Source of the DNA: a virus
Length of the DNA: 31,324 nucleotides
Direction: 5' to 3' (one strand)
Virus record (IMG/VR): IMGVR_UViG_3300042891_001383
Coordinates: 1-31,324 of that record
Program-made: the position numbers and the translations under genes
Notes under the pieces: generated by a model
Databases searched by the model: none
Told to the model about the DNA's origin: nothing
The model's input: only the letters and a program-made list of their open reading frames with translations
Shown here: one piece after another, positions 1,839-26,630 of the stretch
Layout of the letters: every line of letters begins with the position of its first letter
Position numbering within the stretch: position 1 is the stretch's first letter

Positions 1839-3500
1839 TTAAAGAGTTTCTAATCCTCTTACGTATACTTTACCGTAGAACTCAGGACGAACCACTTTCT
1901 TCGCGTAACGTGTCATAACACCTTTACGTGGAGTGAAGTTAACTGGATCATATACAAGTGGAGTCATGATCAACGGAATATAAGGGCTAAATACAGCACC
2001 TGTTTCAAGGAATTGACTTCCTCTGAATCCCATTAGGATAATGTTCTCTTTCATGTATGGGTTTTTGTATACAGTGTATCGGTTATTAATTGCACCAATT
2101 TTTTGAACACCAGCAGCAAATTCTAATTTAGTTCCATCTGTATCAGCAGCGAATCCTGGGATAGACTCAAGGATAGTTGCTACTGCAGGAGATGTAACTA
2201 AGAAGTTAGCACCACCACGTAATGTTTTTTGGTGAATTTTATTAGATACTTTTTGAAGTTTTGTACCTAAAGTTTGGAACCATCCACCTTGAGTGTTATA
2301 GAATCCACCATTAGTTACAGTTTGAGCTGTAAAGTTAGATCCGGTCCAAATTTCATTGTTAACTGCTGACCAATACTCAGTTGTAGGAGCTGCAGAGATC
2401 AACATATCAAGGATTTCAAGATCGATTTCCATTGATACATACTCAGAAAGCATTGAAGTCAATTCAGCTTCAGCATCAATTGAGTGGTAAGCGTTCAAAT
2501 CTTGAGCAAACTCAGGTGTCCAAACTGCTTTCAATTTACGTGTTTTAGCAACAATCGGCTCTGATTGAAGTTCCAAGTTCAATTCTGGGATATCAATATC
2601 TGTACCGTTGTTAATACCTAAATTAGTACCAGATCCTTTGAATGGATTGTTATCTTCAAAATCACCTCTAGTAATATCCGTAGGTTGTTTGCTATATGTT
2701 ACAGTATATCCTGCAGTTCCACTTAATCCTAATGCACCAGATACGAAAAATTCAATCTTACCCGTTGATACATTGAATTTAGTAAATGCTGGAACAACGT
2801 TTGCTGCTGTATAATTAGAACCAGATGCAATTGTAAATGATCTAACTGCAGTCAAATCTGGATTAGTTAATGAAGCTGTACTTACGTAAATAACTGAGTA
2901 ACTAGCTAAAGCGTTGGTATATGCAGAATCAAAATTAACTGACCCAGATCCGGCACTAACTGCTGAAGCAGTTGTTGCAGCTACTCCTGTTGCAGTTGCG
3001 TCATTGATTGAATAACCAAAACGACCTGCTCCATAAAGACCTCCTGTCGGATCATCAGATGTATTAGTTACACCAAATAATGAATCATCAGACTCAGGCG
3101 AAGCAAATGGATGACCTGAAGTAGATACTGGATCTGTGTTATCATCATTAAATCCTGGTTGAGCTGTACCATATTTAAAGTCTAAATAAAATACTAGACC
3201 TGATGGCAAGTTCATTGGTTGAACTGATACGAATTCTTTTGCAGCAAATTCAGCAAAGATACGACGTACCAATGGAAGTGCTACACCAGCCCACTCTTCA
3301 GATCCTTCTGCTGTACCTGTTTGTGAAGCTTCTTTTACTAATTGTCTTGCTTGGTTTTCAAGCAATTGAGCCATACCTGCTCTTTCTGTCTCATTTCTAA
3401 GACCTTCTAAAAGTCCCGTTCTTTCCCACTTTGCAACTGTTGCTACTGATGCAGCACGTTGAGAAGCGTCTGGACTTTGTAATAATGAATTTAAACTCAT
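1839..3500 (-). CDS. 23: Major capsid protein (T4 gp23-like)
   Basis: A 553-residue major head protein that forms the hexamers of the T4-like shell after scaffold-directed assembly and proteolysis. The diagnostic gp23 block lies near residues 45-110: LLENQARQLVKEASQTGT, then WAGVALPLVRRIFAEFAAKE and FVSVQPMNLPSGLVFYLDFK. The C-terminal half keeps the conserved series around VAKTRKLKAVWTPEFAQDL and the ending YGKVYVRGLETL. Between about residues 110 and 295 is a long Ser/Thr/Gly/Asp-rich stretch that resembles the variable surface insertion region. In T4, gp21 removes an N-terminal segment; here VKE at about residues 56-58, just before ASQTGT, is a candidate cleavage site by position. A strong Shine-Dalgarno (AAAGGAG, 3509-3515) precedes the ATG. 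The gene follows gp22 by 31 nt and ends in a terminator. Confidence 0.97.
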   Translation of the reverse strand: MSLNSLLQSPDASQRAASVATVAKWERTGLLEGLRNETERAGMAQLLENQARQLVKEASQTGTAEGSEEWAGVALPLVRRIFAEFAAKEFVSVQPMNLPSGLVFYLDFKYGTAQPGFNDDNTDPVSTSGHPFASPESDDSLFGVTNTSDDPTGGLYGAGRFGYSINDATATGVAATTASAVSAGSGSVNFDSAYTNALASYSVIYVSTASLTNPDLTAVRSFTIASGSNYTAANVVPAFTKFNVSTGKIEFFVSGALGLSGTAGYTVTYSKQPTDITRGDFEDNNPFKGSGTNLGINNGTDIDIPELNLELQSEPIVAKTRKLKAVWTPEFAQDLNAYHSIDAEAELTSMLSEYVSMEIDLEILDMLISAAPTTEYWSAVNNEIWTGSNFTAQTVTNGGFYNTQGGWFQTLGTKLQKVSNKIHQKTLRGGANFLVTSPAVATILESIPGFAADTDGTKLEFAAGVQKIGAINNRYTVYKNPYMKENIILMGFRGSQFLETGAVFSPYIPLIMTPLVYDPVNFTPRKGVMTRYAKKVVRPEFYGKVYVRGLETL

Positions 3501-4989: not shown

Positions 4990-5505
4990 TTAAATTTTTC
5001 GCATAGGGCGTTTTGATGCAGCAGGTGGTAATTCTCTAGAAGGATTTGCTTCTCCTCTTACTCGAAATCTAAATGCTGCTAATTCTAAACGTTGTGCAAA
5101 ATATCCTTGAATGCGTTGTGCATCCTTTTCTGGATCTTCACCTAATCTAAAATAGAAATATCCATTCTTACCATTTTTAGATACCGTACGTTTAATTATA
5201 GTAAAACCTTTTTTTTCAGCCCATTGTTTGATGTCATCAGAAACATCTCGAGCTTGAGATGGATCTTTAATTGCATATTCTACGCCGCCTTGGTATTCAT
5301 CAATACCGTTAACGAGTTTAGCTTCATCAACAATTTCTTCATCTATTGCTTTGTTGATAGCAGTTCTTCGTTTTTTTAGATATGAATCTGTTTTATCGGT
5401 TTTGCCATCATTATTAATATCAGAGTCTTCTTTACCAACAGTATCCATTTTAGATTCCGTTAAACCAAAAAAGTCTCTATATAATTTTTTAAATGTATTC
5501 ATCAT
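4990..5505 (-). CDS. Head-region protein with EF-hand-like loop, unknown function
   Basis: A 171-residue protein not assigned to a named family. Residues 1-20 (MMNTFKKLYRDFFGLTESK) form an amphipathic segment ending in L-T-E, which resembles a T4 capsid-targeting sequence with a gp21 cleavage site. Next comes DINNDGKTDKTD (about 29-40), a calcium-loop pattern like an EF-hand or dockerin loop. The C-terminal half is mixed alpha/beta with FAQRLELAAFRFRVRG and ends in a basic proline-rich tail. AAAGG lies 5 nt before the first of two adjacent ATG codons, so either could be used. Its place among prohead genes suggests a core or internal head protein. That role is inference. Confidence 0.75.
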   Translation of the reverse strand: MMNTFKKLYRDFFGLTESKMDTVGKEDSDINNDGKTDKTDSYLKKRRTAINKAIDEEIVDEAKLVNGIDEYQGGVEYAIKDPSQARDVSDDIKQWAEKKGFTIIKRTVSKNGKNGYFYFRLGEDPEKDAQRIQGYFAQRLELAAFRFRVRGEANPSRELPPAASKRPMRKI

Positions 5506-5965: not shown

Positions 5966-6595
5966 TTATATCCTACATTTACCATCTTCACATAATATCG
6001 ACGTAATAATACTATTTACGCCAGCATATTTGTTTGTTGTTATATTTTTATTTACCGATTCATTCATACCCGTAGGGCGCATAAAAGCACCATGAGTTGA
6101 AGGATTAGATACAAAGTCCCAACAAATCAATTCAAAATCTTCTTGTACTTCTACTACGCCTTCATTTCGTAATTCTTTAACTGACCCCATACCTCTACTA
6201 GAAATGCCCAATGTAATACCTGCTTTAAAAAGTGACTTTAAAATATTACCTGACGGTGTATCTAGTATTTGTACTGCTCCACACAAATCATTTCCTTTCC
6301 ACCATATCTTTAAAACATTATGAGAAACATTGTTTAAATTAACTACAGATGATTCTGGATGATCTAATTCTCCTAATGCTCTATGTTGATCAATATATTC
6401 TGTTTGATATCGTTTACATTCTCTTTCTAGAATATGTTTTGGATAAACTCTACCGTTTTGATTTTTTGCTCCAGCTCGTTGCAATACACCTTGAACAACA
6501 ACACCGCCCGGGATGCCATATGCTGCTCCAGATTGTTCGGTTAATGTACCGACAGGTTTAAATGGTATATATTCTACGATTAACTGCTTTGACAT
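5966..6595 (-). CDS. 21: Prohead core protease (T4 gp21-like)
   Basis: A 209-residue prohead serine protease of the T4 gp21 type (herpesvirus-assemblin-like fold). It cleaves scaffold and capsid precursors after L/I-x-E sites inside the prohead. The visible catalytic pieces are His79 in ELDHPES, Ser132 or Ser133 in GISSRGMG, and the DFVSNPST block with Asp160 near the end of the core. GRVYPKHIL near residue 50 is also typical. A G-T-L-T-E site at 16-20 and the C-terminal tail could be self-cleavage points. AGGAG lies 6 nt before the start. It overlaps no neighbour but is tightly packed, with a 1-nt gap from the preceding gene. Confidence 0.93.
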   Translation of the reverse strand: MSKQLIVEYIPFKPVGTLTEQSGAAYGIPGGVVVQGVLQRAGAKNQNGRVYPKHILERECKRYQTEYIDQHRALGELDHPESSVVNLNNVSHNVLKIWWKGNDLCGAVQILDTPSGNILKSLFKAGITLGISSRGMGSVKELRNEGVVEVQEDFELICWDFVSNPSTHGAFMRPTGMNESVNKNITTNKYAGVNSIITSILCEDGKCRI

Positions 6596-13887: not shown

Positions 13888-13897
13888 ATATAAATAT
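13888..13897 (-). promoter_or_regulatory. ATATTTATAT motif (with a second overlapping half copy), candidate late promoter
   Basis: The coding strand reads ATATTTATATTTATAAG: one full copy and an overlapping TATTTATA. It is 24 nt before the ATG at 13863 and overlaps the stop codon of the preceding gene by one base. Confidence 0.48.
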
Positions 13898-15921
13898 CAC
13901 CGTGCGTACTTTAATACCCCTAGTATTTGATTAACTGGTGCAAATGCTCCCGTGAGTTTGTATGTATTGCCGCCGTATACAAATACTACTCCTTCTGATG
14001 GCACAATTGCTTCAAACCCACCAAGTCGTTGTATACGACGTAATTCATGTTCTAGCTTTTTAATGCTATTAATATCTTGAGTTGTTTCTAATTCTCTAAT
14101 TAGATCAGCTAAATCTTTTTTCAATTCCTGTACAGATTGTGATGGATTTGCTGCTAAAAAGTTTTCTGCATTACGTAATACAACTGCACCTAACCGTAAA
14201 AATACGCTTTCGAATGGTTCCATGTTTTGTTTGTAATACGTTTTAAAGTCTTTTTTATCAAATTCAGTTACCCAAGCAGAAAATTCCGGATTTGTGATTT
14301 GTTTTTTAAGTGCGGCAATGTTTGCGGATTTGTCAAAAAATGCCCATCGATTAATTAATGCTGTTAATATTTCAGCCGGGATATCATATCCCAATGACTG
14401 TGCTTTTTCTCGTATCACATCTCCCCACCACGCTTTATGATAGTCAGAAACTAGATCCGTATCTTTCAATCCATATCTAGAACGTAATTGGTCAACTTCA
14501 TTAAAAAATGCAGCTTGTTGATCTTCAAAATCTGATATTCTACCGATTTTGATTCGTTGTGGCGGAATAAATGAAAACGTTTTTTGAAGATGTGCGTTTG
14601 CATCTTGAATAATACCTTGCAAAGCACCACCTCCAGTTAAGTCTGTTTGCATGGTATTACCTGCTTCATCATATTCAACTAGATTGTGAAATTGTAATAC
14701 TGCAACATCATATGAAATTACATTTTTAGTTGCAGGATAAATAATTTCCATGTTAGCAAATACACGTCCATTTTTAAAAATACCATTTAATACGTTCGGA
14801 TCTACACGATTGAATGCTTCTGCTAAATCTTCTGCGGCATTACCAAATGCATCTGATATAGGTCCTCGGCCTCCAAACTTATCTTGTATTTCTTGTACTG
14901 ACATTGGATTAATTACAGTGCCTTTGTTTCTAGCAAATCCAATTTGACCATTTTTATATGTTACTTGTATATTTTGACCATCAGTCTTTTCTGTTACTGC
15001 GGCTTCAATATCTAAATATCCACCTAATGCTCTTGAAATTATTTCTTTAACATCGCCAAATGAAAGTGCATGATCATCATATGGGTGTGCCATATGGCCT
15101 GCTGCACCTCCTTCTTTAATCATTTGAATTGCTTCAGTTAATGGAACACCTACAACAGTTTTTTCAAAATCTGCAAAATCATATACAAAAGGTTTACCAA
15201 AACTATTATTCAGAAACTTTTTAAGTTTTGCAATTTTCTGTTTGTGTTTTTCAGCCGTTTTCGGATCCATATATCCTTCTGTAACTGCATCAATATCTTC
15301 TTGTAAAATTTTAGTCCACCACGCTTTTGAAAATAATGCCTCTTGTATACCTGTTAATGTTTGCCATACATTTTTAATTTCAGAATCATTTTGTGCAGGA
15401 TATGCTTGTTTGAATGATGCATAATCTCCGTTTGCTAATGCTGCACGTACGGTGGTTGCTGAAATAGGTTGTCCTGTTGCATCTGTTAATGGATCAATAT
15501 CTAGATTCAATTCCGTTGCATCTACTCCTGCAGGTATTTTACGTCCTTGTTTATCTCCAATTGTTTTGTATTTATCTACATTTGGAACAAAGTCTTTGGT
15601 ACGTACGTAATCATCTCCTTTTGTTGATGCTGCCATTGCAAATCGGCCTTGCACATCAGTTGGAAGTGCAAATAAGTATTCATACGCAGCCATTATTGGA
15701 GAATTGAATTCTGTTGGTTGTATGGTGATGTTTGGATTGCGATTAATTAAATTGAATATATCAATTGTTTTTTCTCGGGTAATGCCGTCTCGATCTTTAG
15801 GTCCTATAAGTAGAATTACGCGATCGGTATCAGGATGTTGAGCATATCGTTCTGCTAATGCTAAATGAGCTCCGGTTAATGGTTTAAATCCTCCTGGAAA
15901 TAACGTTGTTATTTTATTCAT
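13897..15921 (-). CDS. Bifunctional nucleotidyltransferase / RNA-ligase-like protein
   Basis: A 674-residue fusion. Residues 1-165 are a cytidylyltransferase-like (HIGH superfamily) domain: FPGGFKPLTGAH at 8-19, where the usual HxGH appears as T-G-A-H, and ISATTVRAAL at 153-162, the counterpart of the ISSTxxR motif. From about residue 245 the protein carries RNA/DNA-ligase-type nucleotidyltransferase motifs: K312-T-D-G (motif I, the lysine that would take AMP), GFARNKG with R331, VFANMEIIYP near 387-396 (motif III-like), EGVVFVY at 643-649 (motif IV) and YKLTG with K655 (motif V). A long helical insertion lies between motifs III and IV. The first domain suggests nucleotide-cofactor synthesis, the second RNA or DNA end joining or adenylation. 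The motif at 15936-15945 precedes the start. The domain calls are from motifs; the substrates are unknown. Confidence 0.82.
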   Translation of the reverse strand: MNKITTLFPGGFKPLTGAHLALAERYAQHPDTDRVILLIGPKDRDGITREKTIDIFNLINRNPNITIQPTEFNSPIMAAYEYLFALPTDVQGRFAMAASTKGDDYVRTKDFVPNVDKYKTIGDKQGRKIPAGVDATELNLDIDPLTDATGQPISATTVRAALANGDYASFKQAYPAQNDSEIKNVWQTLTGIQEALFSKAWWTKILQEDIDAVTEGYMDPKTAEKHKQKIAKLKKFLNNSFGKPFVYDFADFEKTVVGVPLTEAIQMIKEGGAAGHMAHPYDDHALSFGDVKEIISRALGGYLDIEAAVTEKTDGQNIQVTYKNGQIGFARNKGTVINPMSVQEIQDKFGGRGPISDAFGNAAEDLAEAFNRVDPNVLNGIFKNGRVFANMEIIYPATKNVISYDVAVLQFHNLVEYDEAGNTMQTDLTGGGALQGIIQDANAHLQKTFSFIPPQRIKIGRISDFEDQQAAFFNEVDQLRSRYGLKDTDLVSDYHKAWWGDVIREKAQSLGYDIPAEILTALINRWAFFDKSANIAALKKQITNPEFSAWVTEFDKKDFKTYYKQNMEPFESVFLRLGAVVLRNAENFLAANPSQSVQELKKDLADLIRELETTQDINSIKKLEHELRRIQRLGGFEAIVPSEGVVFVYGGNTYKLTGAFAPVNQILGVLKYAR

Positions 15922-23488: not shown

Positions 23489-26059
23489 TTACTTATTACT
23501 CAAAACATCTCTATATACACCGCTTTTAATAGATGTAGTTGCTGACCAAAATGGAGATATTGCTTGTATTGCTGCTAATAATGTCGCTTTAAATGCAGGA
23601 CCTACCGCAGCTTTTGTTACATATGTTTTTTCTGTTACTGTTTTACCAAGCAATTTTGCTTGTAAACGTTTACCGCCATCAGACCAACCACTTCCTGTAC
23701 CTCGTAATATTGTAGCACCTTTTACTTTAACTATAATAGTTCCATCGTCGCGTACATGCAAAAATGCATTTTGATCAAATGCTGCTGGACTTCTTTTTAA
23801 TAAAAGAGTTGCATCAAACCACCAAACTTTAAGTTTACTATCATATGATGCTGTTACATTTAATGCTTTAGCAACGTCTTGTATAAAACGTTTAGGTGCC
23901 GGCTTTTGTGCTTGTGTACTAGTTTTTGTCGATGTCTTCGTTGTTGATTTGGTAGTAGTAGCTTTTGGTTTTAAAGATGGTTGTTCGGGAAGATTTCTAA
24001 AACTTAATTTATTAATACCAATTTGTAGATTCAGCGTTTTATCTTTCCATGCACCTGCATTGGCACGAATTGCTTGAAATAATGTATCAAATATTGCATC
24101 GCCTGCAGGTAAGTTACTTGTATATGTTCCGGTTTTCGTTATTAATTTTTTACCGCCTTCAGTCCATCCACTACCGATACCTTGTACAATTTGTTTACCT
24201 TCTGATGTAACAGAAATAGTACCATCATCGCGCATATGTAACAATCCATCTGCATCTATTTTTGCTGGTCCTCGTACAATACGTATTTCTAAATCAATAT
24301 ACCATACTTTTAACTTTTCACTGTAATATAATTTACCACCCGTTGCTTGAGCTATTTTATCAATACCTCGGCGTTGACCTAAAAGCGTTGCAGTATCAGA
24401 TTTTTTTGTTTTATCCGGTGCTTTAGCTTTTTCAGGTGTCTTAGATTTCGCAGGCTCGGTTGTTTTTGGAACAGTTTTAGTTGATGTAGATGTTGTTGTT
24501 TTAGGAACTTCTTTTTTTGTAGTAGTAACAGGCGTTGGAGTAGTAACAGCTGAAACATCAAACCCTGAAAAATCTTGTTCTCGTAAATTAAGTTCAAGAA
24601 GTATAGATTTCAATGAAAGTTTAGATTCTGATTTAATTGGAGATAATAATCTATCAATCAATTGTTCTGTTACGTCTGTTGAATTTTGTACTTTAAAAAA
24701 TCCTTTATTCAAATCACGTATTACAGCTTTTGATTTATTTCCCCAAATGCCATCAACTGGTTTTGCAATATTCGCAAAATCTTTAACAGATGGTATTATT
24801 TCTTTTAATGTATATTGTTTTCCATCTACCATAATCTTACTGTTTATTACGCGTTGCATAATAAGCTGCTGGAATACCTTTGCAGTTTCAGCATCTGGTT
24901 GTGTTTTATTAATTTCCGGTAATAATGCTAGTAATTCTTCTTTAGATAACGCTTTGTCTTCACCTTTATCCGTTTTAAATGACAATTTTTCTAAGCTACT
25001 AGACTGTGTTTCTTTTTTAGATTGTTCTTTACCACTAAAAAATGTGTCTAAATCTGTCGTTATTGGTTGTTTATCATTGATTTGTTTTACTAAACGATCA
25101 TATTGTTCTTTTGTTATGCGCCGGAATTGTGTAAAGCCTTTATATTTTGTATTCAAAGGCGTTGTTTCATCAATGAATTCGAATTCATCGACCGGACGAA
25201 ACATTTCAGATTCAAATTTCAACCACTCCGGTGTTGAATCAACGTAACGTGAATTTGAAAATAAACCATTGATTTCATCATATGTAACATTATTGCTATT
25301 AGTAGTAGTTTTAATATCAGTTTTTGGATTAAATGTATCTTTTAATTTAAACAATGTTATACGAGTTTCGCCGGCATTAACAAACGTATCGCCTGGCTTA
25401 AATCTAGATTCTTCTGTTTTTTCTTTTGTGTCTGATGAACTACTACCTCCGCCATCTTTTTTGACAACCACAATTTCTTTTTCATCACTACTAGGAGAAT
25501 CGGTAACTGTATTGTTTAAAATTTCTTTAATTTGATTAATTAATGTTTCTCCAGTACCTAAATCTACCGGGGTTTGAGATGTTTTTAGTTGATATATACG
25601 TTTAGCTTTTGGATCAATTGCTGCAATAAAAGATGATATCGTTGTTACAATACTTTGTCCTACATTACCTACTTCGCGAGGTGTTGAGCCTGGTTTAAAC
25701 AAATCTTCTACATTTTCAAAAATTGTTTCTCCGCGTCCAACTGATACTTTTTTTGTTTTTGGGTAAATTAAAATATCATTAACCATTTTTTTCGATGATT
25801 TTTTTAAATCATCACTAATAATATAATACCATTCACCATTTGCAAATGCCGATGTAGATCCAAATTGTGTATTTTTAGGACTATTTAAAACGTATAAAAC
25901 GTCTTGTATAGGCACTGGCGCATCATCATCCTTTCCTTGAAATTTAACACGAAAAACCCCAGCTAATAAATTAGCAGCTTTCGATATGATCGAATTAGGA
26001 GATTTTTTTAAAACATATTTAACATCTTCTGTTAATAATAATTTTTTTAAACTAATCAT
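23489..26059 (-). CDS. Multidomain protein with duplicated C-terminal domain, possible internal virion protein
   Basis: An 856-residue protein without an overall recognised family. The N-terminus MISLKKLLLTED resembles a capsid-targeting sequence ending in L-T-E. Residues 425-455 (FANIAKPVDGIWGNKSKAV) resemble a peptidoglycan-binding type 1 motif. An internal LSLKSILLELNLRE at 481-493 repeats the leader pattern. Two Thr/Lys/Pro-rich linkers (about 505-555 and 695-722) flank two copies of one domain, about 565-671 and 725-838, sharing KLKVW[YW], LH[MV]RDDGTI and G[IT]GSGW[TS][ED]GGK. AAAGG lies upstream and a motif copy sits 17 nt before the start. A role in the injected or cell-wall-contacting virion is possible but is inference. 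Confidence 0.78.
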   Translation of the reverse strand: MISLKKLLLTEDVKYVLKKSPNSIISKAANLLAGVFRVKFQGKDDDAPVPIQDVLYVLNSPKNTQFGSTSAFANGEWYYIISDDLKKSSKKMVNDILIYPKTKKVSVGRGETIFENVEDLFKPGSTPREVGNVGQSIVTTISSFIAAIDPKAKRIYQLKTSQTPVDLGTGETLINQIKEILNNTVTDSPSSDEKEIVVVKKDGGGSSSSDTKEKTEESRFKPGDTFVNAGETRITLFKLKDTFNPKTDIKTTTNSNNVTYDEINGLFSNSRYVDSTPEWLKFESEMFRPVDEFEFIDETTPLNTKYKGFTQFRRITKEQYDRLVKQINDKQPITTDLDTFFSGKEQSKKETQSSSLEKLSFKTDKGEDKALSKEELLALLPEINKTQPDAETAKVFQQLIMQRVINSKIMVDGKQYTLKEIIPSVKDFANIAKPVDGIWGNKSKAVIRDLNKGFFKVQNSTDVTEQLIDRLLSPIKSESKLSLKSILLELNLREQDFSGFDVSAVTTPTPVTTTKKEVPKTTTSTSTKTVPKTTEPAKSKTPEKAKAPDKTKKSDTATLLGQRRGIDKIAQATGGKLYYSEKLKVWYIDLEIRIVRGPAKIDADGLLHMRDDGTISVTSEGKQIVQGIGSGWTEGGKKLITKTGTYTSNLPAGDAIFDTLFQAIRANAGAWKDKTLNLQIGINKLSFRNLPEQPSLKPKATTTKSTTKTSTKTSTQAQKPAPKRFIQDVAKALNVTASYDSKLKVWWFDATLLLKRSPAAFDQNAFLHVRDDGTIIVKVKGATILRGTGSGWSDGGKRLQAKLLGKTVTEKTYVTKAAVGPAFKATLLAAIQAISPFWSATTSIKSGVYRDVLSNK

Positions 26060-26084: not shown

Positions 26085-26630
26085 TTACCAATCTACTAAT
26101 ACCATCTTTCCATTCCAAAGCATCATGTTACTAGAGCTAAAATCTAAATCTAAATCAAATTCATCAATTCCTGTTTTTTGTACATCTCGTTGTAAAGCTC
26201 GTAAGAAATTAACAAGTTTAACATCTGTATCACGAGCACCATCTGCATCTAAAAAATCAAATATCGAAACTTCACCGCCTTCAGCTCTAGCAAAATCTCC
26301 ATATCGTTTCATGAATTCATCTACCGTTTGTTTAATATTATCCGGCAGTGGTTCTGCATTTGCCATGATAAACATATGTTCTCGATCATTAACATAATAT
26401 ACTGGAATAAATGTAGTAAATTCATTCCAACGACCAGCAATCACTTTAGCTACTTCATACTCATCTCGTTCCGTAGTAACTTTAAAAACTTTGTCTTCAC
26501 CGTCAATTTCATATACTCGAGCATTATCGCCACTACCTATGAATCGAAATTGTTTATTTTTAATTTTATCAAGCAAACGATCAATTTCTTTTTCAGATAA
26601 TTCTCGTAAAAGTTGTTTTAATCGTATCAT
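26085..26630 (-). CDS. Compact protein-kinase-like protein
   Basis: A 181-residue protein with the hallmarks of a minimal kinase fold. FIGSGDNARVYEI (30-42) is a glycine-rich loop, VFKV holds the candidate ATP-binding lysine K50, and HMFIMANAEPLP (85-96) looks like a hinge. LDLDFSSSNMML (160-171) matches the catalytic-loop pattern D-x4-N (D163, N168), and MVLVDW ends with D180 in the place of the DFG aspartate. The chain stops right after it, so there is no activation segment or C-terminal lobe, as in small APH- or HipA-like phage kinases. Residues 1-12 (MIRLKQLLRELSE) resemble a capsid-targeting leader. The start overlaps the preceding stop by ATGA. Activity is not proven by sequence. Confidence 0.68.
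   Translation of the reverse strand: MIRLKQLLRELSEKEIDRLLDKIKNKQFRFIGSGDNARVYEIDGEDKVFKVTTERDEYEVAKVIAGRWNEFTTFIPVYYVNDREHMFIMANAEPLPDNIKQTVDEFMKRYGDFARAEGGEVSIFDFLDADGARDTDVKLVNFLRALQRDVQKTGIDEFDLDLDFSSSNMMLWNGKMVLVDW

Follow-up and report, generated by a model that had tools for sequence, protein, structure and literature searches.

Why should a T4-like phage fuse a HIGH-superfamily nucleotidyltransferase (NTase) to a ligase-like enzyme in a single polypeptide, and why should the gene for this polypeptide lie between structural genes? The question is raised by a 674-codon open reading frame at 13897-15921 on the minus strand (an earlier note on this DNA had given no strand) of the window, by which we mean the whole 31,324-nucleotide stretch that was analysed, some 31 kb of a T4-like phage known from a virus record. 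The explanation towards which we lean, at slightly better than an even chance, is that the fusion is the precursor of two enzymes that are held inside the phage head, split by the head protease and ejected into the host, probably for the immediate repair of RNA, in particular tRNA. NTase and ligase resemble cargo of a T4-type head more than they resemble a single bifunctional machine. For the window protein itself we infer packaging, cleavage and ejection, as well as the substrates of both enzymes.

The gene and its neighborhood

The translations in the window include PhoH, the gp23 capsid protein, a gp22-like scaffold, a gp21-type protease, portal, terminase, gp46/47-like proteins and a primase, with family models backing the capsid, protease, portal and terminase calls. 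The fusion gene lies between structural genes, amid those for the head and for packaging, and a gene for a Peptidase_S77 prohead protease is found about 7 kb away in the same cluster. Neither tRNA genes nor Rfam RNAs were found in the 31 kb of the window. The genes to which the argument refers are:

13897..15921, minus strand: NTase-ligase fusion gene, 674 aa (P0001), from the ORF translation and its relatives
1839..3500, minus strand: major capsid protein gp23 (Pfam Gp23, 2.2e-74)
5966..6595, minus strand: gp21-type prohead protease (Peptidase_S77), candidate processing enzyme (Pfam 8.5e-33; phrog_207)
26085..26630, minus strand: kinase-like protein with a strict capsid-targeting-type N-terminus, MIRLKQLLRE (phrog_15752, E 0.0017)

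In a separate gene of the window (4990-5505, minus strand), residues 16-77 of the product form an N-terminal module (..DINNDGKTDKTDSYLKKRR) common to several unrelated PHROGs, including the cytidyltransferase phrog_764, and this segment may represent a mobile unit that recurs in phage proteins.

The N-terminal nucleotidyltransferase domain

15352..15921, minus strand: HIGH-superfamily NTase domain, residues 1-190 (AlphaFold2, Foldseek, PDB profile, hhalign)
15865..15876, minus strand: TGAH (T/HxGH motif), residues 16-19, invariant in 30 sequences
15445..15465, minus strand: ISATTVR motif, residues 153-159, with S154 and R159 invariant

Conservation was gauged over the window protein and 29 full-length representatives less than 88% identical to one another (n=30), in all of which T16-G-A-H19, S154 and R159 are retained. 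A Foldseek search with the NTase half matched NMN/NaMN adenylyltransferases (NadD/NadM) and PPAT with E 1.8e-5, and a profile search of the PDB was led by PPATs (E 3e-4); the Pfam match (E 0.0024, 18.5 bits) falls under the cut-off of 21. The window-clade and phrog_395-type NTases are clearly linked by profile-profile comparison only (hhalign, 95.9%, E 5.7e-9). On the predicted model, residues 1-190 qualify as a HIGH-superfamily NTase with the NMNAT/PPAT fold and T/HxGH and ISxTxxR-type motifs. The replacement of the first His of the signature by Thr had earlier been read as a sign of an unusual substrate; however, PPATs normally bear Thr in T/HxGH, and PPATs are the best sequence matches of this domain. 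The departure from the usual motif is instead Ala18, at a position where Gly is normal. A stand-alone relative of the window-type NTase is encoded at 6001-6621 in L085, from Prevotella Lak phages, with 28% identity and FHDGH replacing LTGAH.

The C-terminal ligase domain

13900..15111, minus strand: ligase-fold domain, residues 271-674 (AlphaFold2, Foldseek, alignments A1 and A5)
14977..14988, minus strand: ligase motif I, K312-T-D-G315, with the predicted adenylylated Lys, invariant
14929..14931, minus strand: R331, after motif I, invariant
14746..14757, minus strand: ligase motif III, ANME, residues 389-392, E392 invariant
13984..13995, minus strand: ligase motif IV, EGVV, residues 643-646, E643-G644 invariant
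13957..13959, minus strand: ligase motif V, K655 (YKLTG), invariant

In the same 30 sequences K312-T-D-G315, R331, E392, E643-G644 and K655 are invariant, and the catalytic five are invariant or nearly so over the alignments; an HMxHP segment ahead of motif I is conserved in the ligase family as well. Modelled alone with AlphaFold2, the ligase half reached a pLDDT of 88.8 and a pTM of 0.86. The first 23 PDB neighbors recovered with Foldseek are, without exception, RNA or DNA ligases, the best of them being T4 Rnl1 (E 8e-4, prob 0.97); the TM values are only about 0.2, presumably because of a long helical insertion between motifs III and IV, the helices of which run from 430 to 632 in the AlphaFold2 model. 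No Pfam ligase model scored above its curated cut-off (PF09414 gave 15.3 bits against 27), and the best of 43 members reached E 0.0021 against the models of the Rnl1 and Rnl2 families (PF09511, PF09414). No DNA-ligase OB domain was recognised in the ligase half. Since sequence-only matches remain under the curated Pfam cut-offs, the domain assignments rest on motifs, conservation and fold. By these, residues 271-674 are predicted to be a ligase-superfamily enzyme, that is, a covalent nucleotidyltransferase, which by every sequence test made lies outside Rnl1 and Rnl2.

Several other candidates for a closer affinity were discarded. Comparison of the ligase profile with T4 Rnl1 by hhalign gave a non-significant 0.5% with motif III alone aligned, a search with the profile by sequence only found no significant PDB family, and weak matches to P1 DarA (E 0.2) and to PurA were taken as chance.

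The motifs of both halves stand at the residues where the earlier note had located them, and motifs, conservation and fold searches agree with its view that an NTase-like and a ligase-like domain are fused in one chain. The helical insertion that it had pointed out is real, and structure prediction with fold searches, which it had suggested, returned an NTase fold for the N-terminal half and a ligase fold for residues 300-660, so that at fold level the outcome which it had named as a refutation did not arise.

The linker and a predicted prohead-protease site

15112..15351, minus strand: linker, residues 191-270, with three of the protein's four (L/I)xE(A/G) sites (pLDDT and site scan)
15298..15321, minus strand: WWTKILQE, residues 201-208, conserved linker segment, W201 and W202 invariant
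15109..15120, minus strand: predicted prohead-protease site I268-K-E270|G271 (family (L/I)xE|G consensus)

An AlphaFold2 model built on alignment A4 consists of two confident domains joined by a disordered linker, with pLDDT below 50 at 193-222 and 243-280. To survey the junction, the residues preceding the ligase domain were aligned for 80 distinct sequence contexts. The P3 position is occupied by Leu (50) or Ile (30) and by nothing else, P2 varies widely, P1 is Glu in 78 of the 80 contexts and P1' is Gly in 79; the two contexts without Glu are the distant L084 and the nearer L098. In T4, gp21 cleaves after L/I-X-E (PMC9026906), and the (L/I)-x-E|G ahead of the ligase domain, which in the model falls within the linker predicted to be disordered, corresponds to this prohead-protease consensus, which leads us to predict cleavage. 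Conservation of E-G-G could instead serve the function of the ligase. As a positive control we considered the capsid protein's own processing site, for which there are two conserved candidates, V-K-E|A/S and L-L-E|G, so that the P3 preference of the protease was not cleanly confirmed. The WWxxILQE segment (201-208) resembles an internal capsid-targeting sequence, a likeness that is suggestive only.

We also considered the linker segment HxxKI..FVYDF as a mobile module; no copy was found outside the fusion family among the loci examined. Likewise, a general excess of (L/I)xE(G/A/S) near the N-termini of neighboring gene products was sought over 168 protein clusters and not found.

Relatives and domain architectures

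Relatives are encoded in 276 viral stretches, a conservation of both domains well beyond what chance would give, and the fusion is not a one-off, at least 74 viral loci having a full-length version. More distant relatives are found in a cyanophage and in jumbo phages. The Microcystis cyanophage Mel-JY01 has a ligase half of 38% identity joined to a phrog_395-type NTase, and in an uncultured phage of 484 kb the ligase shares its chain with a ParB-like segment and an NTase of the phrog_3041 type. A 462-kb phage encodes the ligase as its own gene, the next gene ending in a HIGH NTase-like segment, and L153 has two separate genes, a ligase followed after about 250 bases by a phrog_395 NTase. Four marine-type homologs (L142, L144, L145, L148) are proteins of 1,000-1,300 aa that begin with the NTase and end with the ligase, further domains lying in the middle; the middle region of L145 holds a Zn_protease-like domain (PF05618). 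BLASTP found no match to the window-clade NTase in these four. Some phages encode the ligase without the NTase. The repeated occurrence of NTase and ligase as fused or adjacent units argues for one shared process.

The extra segments in the marine-type set comprise the Zn_protease-like PF05618, phrog_36119, ParB-like and weak ART-like segments, some of which follow (L/I)xE sites. A cellular origin of the family was considered and rejected: of 84 candidate stretches from 84,980 genomes three encode relatives, among which L152 adjoins phage head genes and L153 looks phage-derived. One related contig (G004) carries an ordinary second RNA ligase and a kinase-like gene elsewhere, so a packaged enzyme would not simply duplicate it. 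In a viral structure library the relatives are labelled only as 'Cytidyltransferase-like domain-containing protein', and our literature search found neither a paper on a cytidylyltransferase-RNA ligase fusion nor any account in which an NTase and a ligase together form head cargo.

Capsid-targeting tags in related phages

The first ten residues of IPIII direct proteins into the T4 head, with residues 4 and 7 of the capsid-targeting sequence required for targeting and residues 8 and 10 for processing (PMC9026906). We expressed this rule as the pattern M..h..h[ILV].E, which in a 48-kb stretch of T4 with 66 genes finds IPII and IPIII only. The virion proteome of the cyanophage S-CREM2, published from mass spectrometry (PMC10665884), offers an independent comparison, for which the rule was fixed before the scan save that Met was allowed at position 8, a change that added no match. 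The tag is present on 5 of 219 S-CREM2 genes, and the products of four of these five were detected in virions: a SAM hydrolase, a 78-aa protein, an APH-like kinase and a phrog_395 cytidylyltransferase. When the comparison is confined to non-structural genes of at least 70 aa, virion detection was 4/4 for tagged against 22/129 for the rest (Fisher p = 0.0012), the N-termini of gp6, gp12, gp14 and gp154 having been known to us before the full scan. The cytidylyltransferase, gp154, begins MKNFSSFLTE|A and is of the type related by hhalign to the window NTase; by analogy this lends plausibility to virion carriage, the evidence concerning the NTase of another phage and not the window ligase. The authors of the proteome propose that such enzymes are carried in the virion, co-purification being possible (PMC10665884).

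Tags also occur on ligases of the present family. The stand-alone ligase of L152 carries one (MKSLIQYISE...ILE|GG) and sits amid tagged genes directly upstream of the genes for prohead protease and capsid. L152 comes from a 410-kb phage contig, of which 160 kb were sampled; there the tag was found in 44 of 189 genes, where shuffled sequences would yield 0.44. Many of these tagged genes belong to one paralogous set, others being unrelated. The stand-alone ligases of L083 and L149 have a 13-residue variant of the tag. For a window-clade relative with a 160-kb record, the tag is present in 6 of 175 genes against 0.32 expected. Only the stricter 10-residue pattern stood out, in particular genomes, and not a looser N-terminal (L/I)xE(G/A/S). 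The window fusion protein itself lacks an N-terminal capsid-targeting sequence, and its frame is closed upstream, being open for only 4 codons before the ATG. In one relative (L046) a leader, MKSILQEFKQHLTEQ, precedes the NTase, which is no more than suggestive.

The 410-kb contig (ONIZ01000001.1, L162-L169) is binned as an uncultured Firmicutes MAG; its at least 44 tagged genes among the 189 sampled include tandem arrays of one family (MKKLNQFITEKFRLSKDN...), and this jumbo phage probably packages a very large set of proteins in its head. In the window, the product of 26085-26630 is a kinase-like protein of 181 aa (phrog_15752, T7 0.7-like), S-CREM2 virions likewise holding a tagged kinase, and judging by its N-terminus it is a candidate second cargo. 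A further gene, 23489-26059 (minus strand), encodes an 856-aa protein, unassigned to a family, with a near-tag N-terminus, MISLKKLLLTED, and two mutually similar C-terminal regions.

Proposed mechanism and alternatives

During maturation of the prohead the gp21-type protease would cleave the (L/I)xE|G sequence on the C-terminal side of Glu270, perhaps along with further linker sites, freeing an NMNAT/PPAT-like NTase and a lysine-adenylylating ligase with the RNA-ligase fold. Both enzymes would remain in the capsid and then enter the cell with the DNA. There the ligase would most likely reseal cleaved host RNA, such as tRNA cut by anticodon nucleases, before any phage translation, and the NTase would most likely adenylate a small mononucleotide such as NMN, aiding the supply of NAD+. 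We prefer RNA repair on three grounds: RNA ligases have the closest folds, the mending of cut tRNA by phage ligases is established (PMC7824862), and an anticodon nuclease, by halting translation, could prevent the making of a repair enzyme, an obstacle that a ligase carried in the capsid would escape. Anti-defence joining of RNA, which the earlier note had raised, is a live option.

That note had also suggested that the fusion might first produce a nucleotide cofactor and then consume it. A rival of this kind would be a stable bifunctional cytosolic protein, made during infection and neither packaged nor cut, in which the NTase makes or recycles an NAD+-like cofactor while the ligase domain works on RNA at that same stage. 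The missing N-terminal tag of the window protein, the retention of the full-length fusion in 74 loci and the likeness of the NTase to NadD/NadM/PPAT are all in keeping with it, but we regard it as unlikely: the linker is disordered and bears a near-invariant protease consensus, tagged stand-alone ligases exist, and the gene is set amid head and packaging genes. The predicted disordered linker with its protease consensus, together with the existence of ligases without an NTase and of NTases and ligases as adjacent separate genes, leaves the make-and-use scheme unsupported.

Packaging and cleavage would equally suit a ligase that acts on DNA, sealing nicks in the incoming phage genome or joining its ends. 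Delivery alongside the DNA fits such a role, and the lack of any DNA_ligase_A_M match in three related contigs may mean that the phage has no other ATP-dependent DNA ligase, although these contigs are incomplete and the search was directed, through DNA_ligase_A_M, at the ATP-dependent type. As RNA ligases lead the structural neighbors and the OB domain of DNA ligases is not seen, we hold this to be rather improbable. Still less probable is a virion assembly factor like T4 gp63 (Rnl1), with the ligase fold kept in a structural cluster mainly for assembly. T4 rnlA, the best PDB match, is annotated both as RNA ligase and as tail-fibre attachment catalyst, and the present gene does lie between structural genes; yet its full catalytic set is invariant, the partnership with an NTase would be left unexplained, and a tail factor would need no targeting tag. 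The head-cargo precursor therefore remains our preferred reading.

Phage RNA ligases are usually viewed as expressed after infection. If the head-cargo model is true, the cell would contain the ligase as soon as infection begins, before any phage-made protein. More broadly, and with somewhat less than an even chance of being right, T4-type tags and prohead-protease sites may mark out a store of enzyme cargo that is widespread among marine, freshwater and jumbo phages and for the most part unannotated. The NTase-ligase would then be a virion-delivered nucleic-acid repair kit with a new ligase family, arising from a precursor split by the head protease and active before phage translation. The tag rule, which combines the T4 targeting residues with L/I-x-E, singles out known virion proteins when applied to an independent proteome, and provides a simple and testable means of listing injected enzymes across thousands of metagenomic phage genomes.

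Comparison with known systems

Phages are already known to package host-modifying enzymes (Alt, IPs), to encode RNA ligases and to make polyvalent proteins. With T4 RNA ligase 1 (gp63/RnlA) and the Rnl1/Rnl2/Rnl3 enzymes, its best structural neighbors, the window ligase shares the KxDG nucleotidyl-Lys motif and motifs III, IV and V, but it differs from them in scoring below the Pfam cut-offs, in its helical insertion between motifs III and IV, in its HMxHP segment and in its fusion to a HIGH NTase. The phage 'cytidyltransferases' of PHROGs 395/3041 are likewise HIGH-superfamily NTases, with a ligase partner in Mel-JY01, L142 and L084 and a ligase neighbor in L153; the window clade, in contrast, has TGAH, and the virion-detected gp154 of S-CREM2 is a separate gene. 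The NMN adenylyltransferase fusions of phages (NadM, NadR) also join a HIGH NTase to a second enzyme domain, but their partner is a Nudix or kinase domain (PMC7824862, PMC9503650) whereas here it is a ligase. Polyvalent proteins (PMC5512222) are multidomain and thought to be packaged and injected, much as the marine homologs, at up to 1,300 aa, include protease-like and other domains; the portions of that report considered here describe no NTase-ligase pair. With IPI-III and Alt of T4, which are packaged in the head, processed by gp21 and ejected, the present system shares the L/I-x-E rule, a gp21-type protease and, on relatives, the 10-residue tag; it departs from them in that the cargo is an NTase and a ligase, and in that the window protein, which has no N-terminal tag, carries its site between two enzyme domains.
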